NCBI RefSeq assembly: GCF_023703795.1
Contig: NZ_CP098518.1
Span: forward strand, 496,001-560,000
Reading direction: 5' to 3'
DNA from: Haloplanus sp. HW8-1
Lineage (GTDB): Archaea; Halobacteriota; Halobacteria; Halobacteriales; Haloferacaceae
Length of the DNA: 64,000 nt
How positions within the stretch are numbered: position 1 is the stretch's first letter; the number at the start of each line of letters is the position of its first letter. The notes beneath the pieces are model-generated. The model was not told the origin of the DNA. It did not search any database and worked only from the letters and a program-made list of their open reading frames with translations. The translations under genes and the position numbers were made by a program. This document shows positions 24,884 to 29,621 of the stretch, piece by piece.

Positions 24884-25573
24884 TCACGTCAGCGTCCGGA
24901 CGGCGTCGACGAGAAAGACGACGCCGAACCCGCCGAGTACGAGGGCGCTGGCGCCGGCGACGACGGGCGTGAACGCGGCCACCCGCCGCTGGGCCGCCCG
25001 GAGCGCCGCCGGGAACCCGGTGATCCACACGCCGATGCCGAGGAAGAATCCGGCGATGAGCGCCGGGCTCCCGGTCCGGACCACCAACAGGCCCGCGAGG
25101 TCGGCCCCGACGTAGGGCGTATAGGAGAGTACGTCGAGGCGTCCGGGTTCGAGCAGTCCAACGCCGATGGTCAGCCAGAACAGGATCTGGTAGGGATTGG
25201 TGAGCGCGAGCACGAACGCCTTCCGAAAGCCGGTCGCCGCCCGGGCCGCCGCCCCGTTGGTCGGGACCGCGTCCATCCTGCCGGTCACGTCCGATGCGGC
25301 GCCGTAGGCGAAATAGAGCATGAGGAGGCCGCCGACGCCGACCATCGCAGCCCGGACCGTCGGGAAGCGTTCGACGAAGGTGACGACGCCGAGCAGCGCA
25401 CAGACGAAAAAGACGGCGTCGGCGGTCATCGCCCCGAGGCCGGTCCGGACGCCGGCCACCCACCCGTTGGTGACCGACTCCTCGGCGATGACGGCGTTCA
25501 TCGGGCCGGGTGGGGCGGCGAGGGCGAGGCCGAAGACGACGCCGGCCAGGAGGGATGGCAGGGGACTTGGCAC
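24884..25573 (-). CDS. LysE family translocator
   Basis: A 229-residue membrane exporter with six hydrophobic segments. AAPPGPMNAVI (near 19-29) is the family's N-terminal signature and KAFVLALTNPYQILFWL near 122 the second conserved block. Exports amino acids or similar solutes; substrate unknown. GTG 25573 lies 27 bases after a GTTTTTCT element, so a leaderless GTG start. It converges with the histidine kinase gene. Confidence 0.9.
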   Translation of the reverse strand: MPSPLPSLLAGVVFGLALAAPPGPMNAVIAEESVTNGWVAGVRTGLGAMTADAVFFVCALLGVVTFVERFPTVRAAMVGVGGLLMLYFAYGAASDVTGRMDAVPTNGAAARAATGFRKAFVLALTNPYQILFWLTIGVGLLEPGRLDVLSYTPYVGADLAGLLVVRTGSPALIAGFFLGIGVWITGFPAALRAAQRRVAAFTPVVAGASALVLGGFGVVFLVDAVRTLT

Positions 25574-25621
25574 GGCCGATCCCTGGACGTCCGTGAGAAA
25601 AACGCTACCGCTTCGCCGGCG

Positions 25622-26332
25622 TCAGAACAGCGCCAGCACGGCCGTCGACACCGCCGTGACGACCGACTCCCAGACCGAGAAGCCGGTGACGATGCTCAAC
25701 GCTGTGTCGCCCGCGAAGAAGGCAAAGAGCCCGGCGGAGAAGAAGTGGACCTTCCGGAGGTCCAACCGGTGGGAGAACCGATGGAAAAAGAAGGCGTTTG
25801 CGAGGCTCACCGGAACGATCGCGAGCATCTCCCCCGCCCAGATCGCGGGGTGGGCGCCGTACTGGGCAGCTAGCCCGATGGTGACGAGTTGGGTCTTGTC
25901 GCCGAACTCGCCGGTCGCCATCATCACGAAGATGGGGAGAAACCCTCCGAAGGTGTCCGGCACCTCACGCCCGAACACCGTCGGCTCGAAGTCGGTTGAG
26001 AGCGACGTCACGCCCCCGTCGGTCGCCGTGGGGTCGATCTGCTCCGGGTCGCCGCCCGACGGCGCGGATCGGTAGAGCAGGACCGCGAAGACGAGAAACA
26101 GGACGGCGGTGAACGTATCGAGGACGACGGGCGGGAGTGCGCGCTGAAGCGCCTCGCCGAACAGGATCTCCAGCGCCGTCCACCCGGCGAAGGCCGTTCC
26201 AGCGGCGCTCACGACCACCAGCGGGTTGTAGCGCGTCGAGAGCCCCGCGATGATGAACTGCACCTTCTCGCCGGGCAACACCACGAGTTGGGCGACGAAC
26301 GCGACGGTGAGGATCTCGACCCACCCCGTCAC
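25622..26332 (-). CDS. TMEM165/GDT1 (UPF0016) family cation exporter, probably manganese
   Basis: A 236-residue membrane protein with six spans in two repeats. The second repeat keeps the metal motif EFGDKTQL (near 141). In the first repeat the matching site reads VLPGEKVQF (18-26), so the first acidic residue is Leu and the Asp is Glu. Known relatives (GDT1, MneA) move Mn2+ and Ca2+. Its GTG start overlaps the stop of the DtxR-family regulator gene (GTGA), which supports metal efflux controlled by that regulator. Metal choice is inferred. Confidence 0.85.
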   Translation of the reverse strand: MTGWVEILTVAFVAQLVVLPGEKVQFIIAGLSTRYNPLVVVSAAGTAFAGWTALEILFGEALQRALPPVVLDTFTAVLFLVFAVLLYRSAPSGGDPEQIDPTATDGGVTSLSTDFEPTVFGREVPDTFGGFLPIFVMMATGEFGDKTQLVTIGLAAQYGAHPAIWAGEMLAIVPVSLANAFFFHRFSHRLDLRKVHFFSAGLFAFFAGDTALSIVTGFSVWESVVTAVSTAVLALF

Positions 26333-27024
26333 GCGCCGCTCACCTCCTCCATTCCCTCTCGGTCGGTGCCGGGCGACCGAACGCGGATGGTCCGCGCGAC
26401 CGACTCCGGGAGGCTCTGTTCGTCGTCGCCGATCCGGACGGTTACCATGCCGAACGGCGCCACGTCGACGACGTCGAGTTCCGTTCCCGGTCGGATCCCC
26501 GCGTCGTCGAGGTAGGCGAGTTCCTCCTCGTCGCGGTCACGAACCCGACCGACAACCACACAGTCGCCCGGTTGATGCTCGCTCAGCGGCGTCGTCTCGT
26601 CGCAGTCGAGCGGTCGCAGCTCCGCCCCGGGGATCGGATCGCCGTGTGGATCCACCTCGGGATCGCCGAGCGCGTCGGCCACCCGCCGTTCGAACTCTTC
26701 GGAGATATGATGTTCGAGGGCATCGGCCTCCTCGTGAACGTCGGTCCACGAGTAGTCGAGGTGCTCGGCGAGATACGCTTCCAGCAGCCGGTGGTGCCGG
26801 AGTACCTCCAGCGCGACCGTCTCTCCCTCGGGGGTCAGTTCGACTCCCTTGTACTTCTCGCGTTCCAGCAACTCCCGGTCCGCGAGTTTCTGGACCATGC
26901 TGGTCACCGTCGGTGCCGTCGTGCCAACCTCGTCGGCGATGGCCGAAGTGGCGACCGGCACGCCCTCCTCCGACTGGAGTCGGTAGATCGCCTTGAGATA
27001 GTCCTCCATCGCGTCGCTCAGCAT
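26329..27024 (-). CDS. metal-dependent transcriptional regulator, DtxR/MntR family
   Basis: A 231-residue DNA-binding regulator that responds to Mn2+ or Fe2+. The N-terminal winged helix contains SAIADEVGTTAPTVTSMVQKL (recognition helix, residues 27-47). The dimerisation and metal domain contains RHHRLLEAYLAEHL and HEEADALEHHISEE with the usual His/Glu ligands, and the C-terminus is a FeoA/SH3-like domain (about 150-222). Its ATG is preceded by a TATA box and an inverted repeat, suggesting autoregulation. It is co-translated with a TMEM165-type exporter. Confidence 0.92.
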   Translation of the reverse strand: MLSDAMEDYLKAIYRLQSEEGVPVATSAIADEVGTTAPTVTSMVQKLADRELLEREKYKGVELTPEGETVALEVLRHHRLLEAYLAEHLDYSWTDVHEEADALEHHISEEFERRVADALGDPEVDPHGDPIPGAELRPLDCDETTPLSEHQPGDCVVVGRVRDRDEEELAYLDDAGIRPGTELDVVDVAPFGMVTVRIGDDEQSLPESVARTIRVRSPGTDREGMEEVSGA

Positions 27025-27099: not shown

Positions 27100-28272
27100 T
27101 CAGACGCCTTGGCTCATCAGGTGACTCCGGAGCAGATCGGCCGTCTTCACGCCGGCGTCGGCGTTGATAACGACGACCGTCTCGTCGTCGTCGAAGGTCC
27201 CGCGTTGCGACAGCGCCCAGGCACCGGCGGCCGCGGCGCCGCCCGTCGCGCCGACCTCCGTCCCGAGTCGCTGGGTCAGGGCCACCGCGCTCTCGAGCAG
27301 ATCCTCGTCGGGCACGGCCACGGCCTCGCCCCCGGCGTCGGCGAGGGCGTCGAGGGCCATGGCGCCACCCGCGGGGTCGGGGATCTCGAGTTCGCCACAG
27401 ATGGTGTCGGGATGCTCGGCCGGCTTGACGGCGTCGGCGCCGTCCTCGTGGGCCTCGACGATCGGCGCACAGCCTTCGGCCTGGACGGCGTGGACGCGCG
27501 GCACCCGATCGGTCAGTCCGAGTTCGACGAGATCGCGGAAGCCGCGTTCGATCCCCACGAGCGTCTCGCCGGTGCCGACGGCGACGACGACGGCGTCCGG
27601 TGCCGTCCAGTCACGAGCGCCGGCCACTTCGTAGGCTATCGTCCGGTAGCCGTCGTGGCGGTAGGGCGTCGTGAACTCCTGTAGCGAGTGCCAGTCGGTC
27701 ACCAGATCCGACCGGAGCGCCTCCTCTGCGTCCGGATAGCGCCCACCGATCACGCGCATGTCCGCGCCGTGGACGTTCACCATCGCCTTGTTCGGGAAGG
27801 GGGCACGCGAGGGGAGATAGGCGTAACAGTCCGTCTCGATCCGGCCGGCGTAGGCGGCCGCCGACTGTCCGGCGTTGCCCGCCGCCGCCAGCGCCAGCAG
27901 GTCCGCGTCCCGCTTCTCGGCCATCGTCACCGCCGTCGAGAGCCCGCGGTCGAGGATCGTCCCCGTCGGGTTCCGGCCCTCGTCTTTGAGGAGCACGGTG
28001 TCGACGCCGAGGTCGGCCGCCAACCCGTCGGCGTCGAGCAACGGCGTCGCGCCCTCGCCGGCGGAGACGGCGTCGTCCGCGGCCACGGGGAGGAGCGCGT
28101 CGTACGCCCACATCGACCGGGGGTCGGCCGGCAGCGCCGACGGGTCGACGACGTCGAGGTCGTAGACGGGGGTGAGCGGGGCATCGGCGTCGCTCCGGCC
28201 GACGTGGCCCGGATCGTATCGCTCGCCGGTCGCCGTACAGTCGAGGCCGATGAGGGTCTCGGAGATGTCCAT
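27100..28272 (-). CDS. threonine synthase-like protein lacking the PLP lysine
   Basis: A 390-residue protein of the fold-type II PLP family, closest to threonine synthase: GEGATPLLDADGL (72-84), KDEGRNPTG (96-104), AAAGNAGQSAAAYAGR (near 130), AVGTGETLVG and a C-terminal GATGGAAAAGAW. The canonical GSFKDRG that forms the Schiff base reads GTILDRG (104-110), so leucine 107 replaces the catalytic lysine; I checked the codons. It is therefore unlikely to be a normal threonine synthase. It could be a regulatory or scaffold homologue, or use another lysine. Divergent from an FAD oxidoreductase gene. Confidence 0.82.
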   Translation of the reverse strand: MDISETLIGLDCTATGERYDPGHVGRSDADAPLTPVYDLDVVDPSALPADPRSMWAYDALLPVAADDAVSAGEGATPLLDADGLAADLGVDTVLLKDEGRNPTGTILDRGLSTAVTMAEKRDADLLALAAAGNAGQSAAAYAGRIETDCYAYLPSRAPFPNKAMVNVHGADMRVIGGRYPDAEEALRSDLVTDWHSLQEFTTPYRHDGYRTIAYEVAGARDWTAPDAVVVAVGTGETLVGIERGFRDLVELGLTDRVPRVHAVQAEGCAPIVEAHEDGADAVKPAEHPDTICGELEIPDPAGGAMALDALADAGGEAVAVPDEDLLESAVALTQRLGTEVGATGGAAAAGAWALSQRGTFDDDETVVVINADAGVKTADLLRSHLMSQGV

Positions 28273-28343: not shown

Positions 28344-29621
28344 ATGGACGACACACCGTCGGTCGCCGTCGCCGGCGCCGGATTGGCGGGGCTGGTCGCC
28401 GCGCGACATCTCGCCGACGCCGGCGCGGACGTCACCGTGTTCGAACGCCGCGACGAGGTCGGTGGCCGGGTCCGAACCCGCCGTCGCGACGGCTTCACCC
28501 TCGACCGTGGCTTCCAGGTGCTGTTCACCGCCTACCCCGCCGTCCGCCGGGAACTCGACCTCCGGGCGCTCGACCTGCAGTCGTTCTCGCCGGGCGCCGT
28601 CATCTGCCGCCCGGGCGAGCGGTCGGTGCTCTCGGATCCGCTCCGCGATCCCCTCTCGCTCACCGAGACGCTGTTCAACCGGGCGGTGACCACGACGGAC
28701 AAACTCCGGACGCTCGCCCTCCGCCAACACGTCGGCGGTCGGGACGAGGCGACCATCTTCGAGAGTTCGGACGCTCCCATCGACGAATACCTCCGCGACT
28801 GGGGGTTCTCCGAGTCGTATCTCGACAACTTCGTCGCCCCCTTCTACGGCGGCATCACCCTCGATCGCTCCCTCTCGACCTCGAAGCGGGTGTTCGAGTA
28901 CACGTTCAAGGCGATGAGCGAGGGCCTGATCGCCCTGCCCGCGGCGGGGATGGCCGCCGTGCCCGCGCAGTTGGCCGACCGTGCCCGAGAGGCGGGAGCG
29001 ACGATCCGTCTCGCGGAACCGGTCGCGGCCGTCGCCGGCGGCGCCGACGGCGTGACGGTCGACACCGAGGCCGACGCCGTCGACGTCGACGCGGCCGTCG
29101 TCGCCACAGACCCGCGCACTGCCGGGCGACTGACCGGCGTGGCTGCCGTCCCCACGACCGCCCGCCCCTCCGTCACCGTCTACTGTACCCTACCCGCCGG
29201 CCCCTCGCTCGACGACGCACGGAAGATCCACCTCAACGCCGGGGACGACCGCCCCAACGCCGTCGTGCCCCTCTCGGCGGTCGCGTCGGAGTACGCCCCC
29301 GACGATCGGCGACTGCTCTGTGCCACGTTCCTCGGCGACGACGCACTCGATACGCCCGATGCCGACCTCGTCTCGGCGACCCGCGAGGCACTCGCGGCGT
29401 GGTATCCCGAGCGCCAGTTCGCCGACCTCGAGGGCGTCCACACCGACCGGATCGAGTTCGCGCAGTTCGCCCAGCCTCCGGGCGTCCACGACGACCTGCC
29501 CGACGTTCGCGACCCGAACGGCCCGGTCTACCTCGCCGGCGACTACACCGCGTGGTCGTCGATCCAGGGGGCGATGCGCAGCGGTCGGGAGGCCGCCGAG
29601 GCGGTCCTCGCGGACCTATAA
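28344..29621 (+). CDS. FAD/NAD(P)-dependent amine-oxidase/desaturase-type oxidoreductase
   Basis: A 425-residue flavoprotein. The N-terminus has VAVAGAGLAGLVAARHL with the GxGxxG dinucleotide motif (11-16), the acidic VFERRDEVGGRVRT block and DRGFQVL, and the C-terminus has VYLAGDYTAWSSIQGAM, the usual FAD-binding end of phytoene-desaturase/protoporphyrinogen-oxidase-like proteins. Substrate unknown. ATG 28344 is about 26 bases after a CTTTAC element, leaderless. Its stop region overlaps the convergent exonuclease gene by 6 bases. Confidence 0.87.
   Translation: MDDTPSVAVAGAGLAGLVAARHLADAGADVTVFERRDEVGGRVRTRRRDGFTLDRGFQVLFTAYPAVRRELDLRALDLQSFSPGAVICRPGERSVLSDPLRDPLSLTETLFNRAVTTTDKLRTLALRQHVGGRDEATIFESSDAPIDEYLRDWGFSESYLDNFVAPFYGGITLDRSLSTSKRVFEYTFKAMSEGLIALPAAGMAAVPAQLADRAREAGATIRLAEPVAAVAGGADGVTVDTEADAVDVDAAVVATDPRTAGRLTGVAAVPTTARPSVTVYCTLPAGPSLDDARKIHLNAGDDRPNAVVPLSAVASEYAPDDRRLLCATFLGDDALDTPDADLVSATREALAAWYPERQFADLEGVHTDRIEFAQFAQPPGVHDDLPDVRDPNGPVYLAGDYTAWSSIQGAMRSGREAAEAVLADL

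Follow-up and report, generated by a model that had tools for sequence, protein, structure and literature searches.

Gene content and neighbourhood of the locus

The window, which is the whole 64,000-nucleotide stretch of Haloplanus DNA that was analysed, contains a gene for a threonine-synthase-like protein with leucine where the lysine forming a Schiff base with PLP is expected. The features of the gene and its surroundings are as follows.

24884–25573, minus strand: LysE-type amino-acid exporter (PF01810; synteny)
25622–26332, minus strand: GDT1 divalent cation/proton antiporter (PF01169; synteny)
26329–27024, minus strand: SirR/DtxR-family metal-dependent repressor, downstream of the gene (PF01325, PF02742, PF04023; synteny)
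27100–28272, minus strand: lysine-less threonine-synthase-like gene, 390 aa, PALP/fold-type II, open reading frame with the stop codon included (PF00291; AlphaFold2 model)
27103–27132, minus strand: family-specific C-terminal tail LRSHLMSQGV, LRSHLMxxG[IV]-COOH in the family (alignment)
27553–27582, minus strand: former PLP-phosphate loop, residues 231–240, AVGTGETLVG, corresponding to PTGGGVGLVG in lysine-bearing orthologues (association of lysine and loop)
27739–27813, minus strand: conserved family block, residues 154–178, PSRAPFPNKAMVNVHGADMRVIGGR, in lysine-bearing and lysine-less members
27952–27954, minus strand: codon 107, CTC (Leu), the site of the PLP Schiff-base lysine (sequence, and alignment with PDB threonine synthases and about 200 orthologues)
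28180–28239, minus strand: remnant of an N-terminal cysteine cluster, with Cys12 kept, Cys15 replaced by Thr and Cys29 by Ala (alignment)
28344–29621, plus strand: flavin amine oxidoreductase (CrtI-like), divergent and upstream, the commonest conserved neighbour (PF01593; synteny)

The flavin gene adjoins 24 lysine-bearing and 56 lysine-less loci, and the SirR–GDT1–LysE run lies downstream of genes of both kinds; sharing the same neighbours, the two kinds are thus positional orthologues. In many Natrialbaceae, the gene occupies another shared place, between a putative LSm gene upstream and a putative GGGPS-like gene downstream, and both kinds are found there as well. The neighbours, a metal repressor, a cation antiporter, an amino-acid exporter, and an FAD enzyme, point to no single pathway. 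The run at 24884–27024 on the minus strand may be a unit for the efflux of metals and amino acids. The H. volcanii counterpart of the flavin protein is HVO_0817 (PMC4300041) and SirR there is HVO_0819 (PMC11349517), so that the orthologue, by synteny between the two, would be HVO_0818. A partial literature search returned nothing relevant on HVO_0818 or on a lysine-less threonine synthase, and no report of a pseudoenzyme derived from threonine synthase.

The lysine and the PLP-phosphate loop across Halobacteria

By profile, the protein belongs to the PALP fold-type II family, PF00291 being its sole Pfam match (E 1.1e-62), and its best sequence matches in the PDB are threonine synthases. Its best NCBIfam model is the PRK08197 threonine synthase equivalog (NF006050), which it matches at 274.6 bits, under the cut-off of 303, compared with 381 bits for the lysine-bearing orthologue L079 and 602 bits for L223 from the outgroup lineage. 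It belongs to the same orthologous group and locus as the lysine-bearing haloarchaeal members that pass this model, common descent being indicated by the tree and the shared locus, but it differs from them in its score and in lacking both the Schiff-base lysine and the GGGxG loop. An AlphaFold2 model built from the window protein and 22 lysine-less relatives (pLDDT 83.2, pTM 0.88) aligns almost end to end with 2C2B, a threonine synthase from Arabidopsis (Z 42.5), and matches bacterial threonine synthases at Z 35–37 (1V7C, Z 37.3). The predicted structure therefore bears out the retention of the fold proposed by an earlier sequence-only reading of this DNA. Compared with ThrC (TIGR00260; PDB 1V7C, 2C2B, 6NMX, and 2ZSJ), the protein is alike in the fold of the whole chain and in Arg205 of the PYR motif, and differs in the missing lysine, the altered cofactor loop, and an extra conserved C-terminal tail.

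The motif stretch reads KDEGRNPTGTILDRG in the translated frame, with Leu at residue 107, whereas the aligned motif in the best-matching solved threonine synthases is NPTGSFKDRG; the lysine of the [ST]FKDRG signature is thus absent. In a first scan, the 26 closest relatives (from Haloplanus, Haloferax, Haloarcula, Halorientalis, and others) have L, H, T, F, G, R, A, or D at this position. Given that none of the 26 carries lysine, neither a sequencing error nor chance can account for Leu107, and the sampled orthologues at the locus from the same genus and the same family are all lysine-less too. The leucine that the sequence-only reading had pointed out is therefore real. Its further statement that the remaining family blocks are intact stands for AAAGNAGQ, in which the Asn is kept, though the preceding Ser is Ala, and fails for AVGTGETLVG, which is an altered phosphate loop.

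This loop is nearly invariant in lysine-bearing orthologues, where the segment reads YPTGGGVGLVG; in the window protein, the core GGGVG has become GTGET, with a Glu inside the loop. Among 168 distinct proteins, the lysine and a GGG[VTA]G loop occur together in 67, both are missing from 100, and a single protein (L098) has the lysine without the loop; that is, the loop is kept in 67 of 68 lysine-bearing proteins and in 0 of 100 lysine-less ones, figures that include lysine-bearing outgroup and paralogue proteins and that, since the rows are related by descent, show that the two are strongly associated but do not count independent events. The L098/L130 protein of genome G156 lies within the lysine-less clade and has a lysine in TVKDRG together with a broken loop (PLEGTEG), while a full lysine-bearing copy, L129, is found in the same genome; the TVKDRG lysine is read as drift.

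Because the phosphate loop has gone with the lysine, a PLP-binding protein that is merely short of its Schiff base is unlikely on the sequence evidence. A search of 101 distinct lysine-less proteins found no newly conserved lysine that could compensate elsewhere in the chain. It could still be argued that the protein is a threonine synthase or a related PLP enzyme that works through another lysine or holds PLP without a Schiff base, given that 91% of Haloferacaceae members keep N133 and 97% of lysine-less proteins keep R205, and that K96 and K162 hardly vary. However, these two lysines are just as common in lysine-bearing members, so that nothing compensates, and the phosphate loop is not only destroyed but often acidic, which leaves this possibility highly improbable.

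Position 236 is Val in 61 of 61 lysine-bearing orthologues; among 101 distinct lysine-less proteins, 54 have Glu there, including all lysine-less Haloferacaceae members examined. Such invariance within one family, along with strong purifying selection on the gene, would suit a PLP-independent active site newly formed on the old fold, in which Glu236 of the old loop takes part. Most other lysine-less lineages, however, have T, V, A, or L here, so there is no new catalytic set common to the clade, nor has a new invariant lysine appeared, and we consider a catalyst of this kind improbable.

The orthologue group is near-universal, 385 of 391 Halobacteria genomes giving a match at E<=1e-60. About 200 of its loci were read for the state of the motif, the family names of coded genomes (f1–f4) being assigned by matching to named relatives. 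More than half of the sampled salt-loving archaea have a threonine-synthase look-alike that lacks the lysine as well as the cofactor loop. Lysine-less members comprise every sampled Haloferacaceae copy at the locus, most of those in Haloarculaceae, and part of those in Halobacteriaceae and Natrialbaceae, and GTFKDRG is present in many Natrialbaceae, Halobacteriaceae, and other families. The lysine is thus missing throughout a clade, a point that the sequence-only reading had raised, and the residue in its place drifts among some 14 types (L, A, T, R, H, G, V, D, F, and others), with codons that vary widely across orthologues. The canonical motif, whose presence in close homologues would have counted against that reading, is indeed absent at the family level at the same locus; it does occur, as GTFKDRG, in positional orthologues of about 50% identity from other families, which places the loss inside the orthologous group and argues against a separate ancient family.

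At the level of genomes, 83 of the 144 sampled yielded only a lysine-less copy, 58 only a lysine-bearing one, and at least 3 both. Both copies, the lysine-bearing one at another locus, are present in G006 (L205/L182), G026 (L204/L112), and G156, and the Haloferacaceae genera g2 and g6 are included here. Some Natrialbaceae and Haloarculaceae also have a lysine-bearing paralogue with PTNTFKDRG (L179, L180, L181, and L131), which has no C-terminal tail.

In a first tree, built with distant paralogue outgroups and a simple model, the lysine-bearing proteins fell in a derived clade, which would imply that the lysine had been regained. This vanished with closer outgroups and a mixture model and is taken as an artefact of rooting and long branches. 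The close outgroups were the PTNTFKDRG paralogues and a set of proteins, 42–44% identical, that carry the lysine and GGGTG and belong to a different family within the phylum; with them, lysine-bearing proteins form a basal grade and lysine-less ones a single clade (bootstrap 84, aLRT 99) nested in it. With the tree rooted in this way, the lysine is ancestral, with at least two losses. A further, well-supported loss is that of L212, which has TFRDRG (AAG to AGG) and the loop GDGGG, compared with TFKDRG in relatives of the same genus (AAG in L155). The AU test does not reject a tree that unites all Natrialbaceae (p-AU 0.40), so the main clade is compatible with one loss followed by transfer or with several parallel losses; in a Natrialbaceae-only tree from which the motif and loop columns had been removed, the lysine-less rows were again grouped (85/98).

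Selection and conserved surfaces

Close pairs of lysine-less genes have dN/dS values of 0.06–0.24, similar to the 0.09–0.23 of lysine-bearing pairs, and these values, together with the conservation described below, rule out a pseudogene. With catalytic residues lost and purifying selection in force, the gene has the hallmarks of a pseudoenzyme, which the sequence-only reading had suggested as one possibility. The lysine-less branches are nevertheless about three times longer (median node-to-tip 1.22 versus 0.36), which indicates that part of the change reflects relaxed constraint. Faster protein evolution, the loss of lysine and loop, and, in Haloferacaceae, the loss of most of the family's N-terminal Cys cluster are what one would expect of a decaying relic on its way to becoming a pseudogene. 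As a general case, this is already refuted by selection and persistence, and we give it almost no credence: dN/dS is well below 1, frames are open without internal stops in the orthologue matches listed across the class, residues are conserved up to the last C-terminal amino acid, and the group is found in nearly every genome.

What outlasts the loss of the cofactor site is the block PSRxxFxNKAMVNVHGG and the C-terminal RSHLMxxG[IV]. Residues R156, K162, H168, R205, and R382 are kept in at least 95% of lysine-less proteins, and residues of the loop and pocket are lost; R156, V167, R382, and L385 are family-specific, being absent from the outgroups, and predate the loss. Arg205, in the kept PYR motif, is presumably the counterpart of the substrate-phosphate ligand in Thermus threonine synthase. 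The G[IV] ending is present in 93 of 101 lysine-less and 48 of 61 lysine-bearing proteins, and the tail, conserved to its last residue, recalls the tails ending in Ile that insert into the active site of CysK. Confidence in the predicted model is lowest at residues 165–169 and in the last 20 residues, segments that might, as a conjecture, become ordered only with a ligand or partner. The conserved blocks could also be structural, serving as an oligomer interface.

A candidate non-catalytic role

The reading that we favour, and regard as reasonably likely, is that a retired threonine synthase has been kept as a PLP-free pseudoenzyme, probably a regulator that binds a ligand or a partner. A PRK08197-type threonine synthase at a widespread haloarchaeal locus would have abandoned PLP chemistry, losing the lysine and the phosphate loop together, with the fold, residues 154–178, and the C-terminal tail kept by purifying selection. 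Judged by its sequence, the lysine-less protein presumably neither binds PLP nor has threonine synthase activity. PLP catalysis here would be dispensable, other threonine synthases being encoded in the same genomes: the window's own genome has four lysine-bearing ThrC-like paralogues elsewhere, of which L044 passes the TIGR00260 threonine synthase model (288 bits versus a cut-off of 167), which also settles in the affirmative whether a canonical thrC co-exists with the gene. In H. volcanii, a transposon screen placed a threonine-related auxotroph insertion in thrC3 (HVO_2969), away from the SirR (HVO_0819) locus (PMC4300041, PMC11349517).

Since the conserved surfaces are older than the loss, we infer that a binding role was acquired first, when the protein was still a PLP enzyme. 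Its present role would be non-catalytic: as a sensor or regulatory subunit, it may bind a small molecule related to the threonine pathway (amino acid or phospho-amino acid), a protein partner, or both, through the remodelled pocket with Arg205, the 154–178 block, and the C-terminal tail. Regulation by such binding is conjectured.

CysE, CdiA-CT, and EGL-9 each insert a C-terminal Ile into a CysK homologue. By analogy, the RSHLMxxG[IV]-COOH tail may plug the active site of a fold-type II protein, whether the same protein or a partner, making the lysine-less protein a PLP-free switch of the adjacently encoded amino-acid or metal response that predates the loss of the cofactor; this more specific proposal is a long shot. 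If true, it would mean that a regulatory role arose before the cofactor was lost. Precedent for regulation by a tail or partner at an old active site comes from CYSL-1 of C. elegans, likewise a retired fold-type II PLP enzyme, which lost its biosynthetic activity and became a sensor (PMC5562914). CYSL-1, compared here by its published description, differs in deriving from cysteine synthase and not from threonine synthase.

Pseudoenzymes among PLP enzymes have so far been few and mostly eukaryotic. SPTLC1/LCB1 and the ornithine decarboxylase antizyme inhibitor AZIN1 are homologues of PLP enzymes with a regulatory or structural, non-enzymatic function (PMC2748086); they differ from the protein studied here in belonging to other PLP fold types, in being eukaryotic, and in having known partners. 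The SPTLC1/SPTLC2 pair suggests that the protein may instead be a non-catalytic subunit in a hetero-oligomer with a lysine-bearing ThrC paralogue, which it would stabilise or tune. The four paralogues in its own genome offer possible partners, the predicted fold is kept, and the precedent exists, albeit among PLP enzymes with a different fold type (PMC2748086). In contrast, the sampled loci show no ThrC-like paralogue that recurs next to the gene, and lysine-less and lysine-bearing orthologues are usually alternatives and not a pair, 3 of the 144 genomes having both (a lower bound), so that a subunit of this kind seems rather unlikely.

The group is a near-universal archaeal set in which cofactor-bearing and cofactor-less states share one gene position, with lysine and loop lost as a unit at least twice and other conserved blocks retained. 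Such a series lends itself naturally to the question of why a metabolic enzyme was in fact retained, and given that the inferred H. volcanii gene belongs to a genetically tractable model, the pseudoenzyme reading is testable. The group also renders "threonine synthase" labels doubtful for many haloarchaea. A case in point is L212 (G018), which has Arg for Lys and a broken loop and still passes the NCBI equivalog at 354 bits versus the cut-off of 303, so that score-based annotation will call it an active enzyme.
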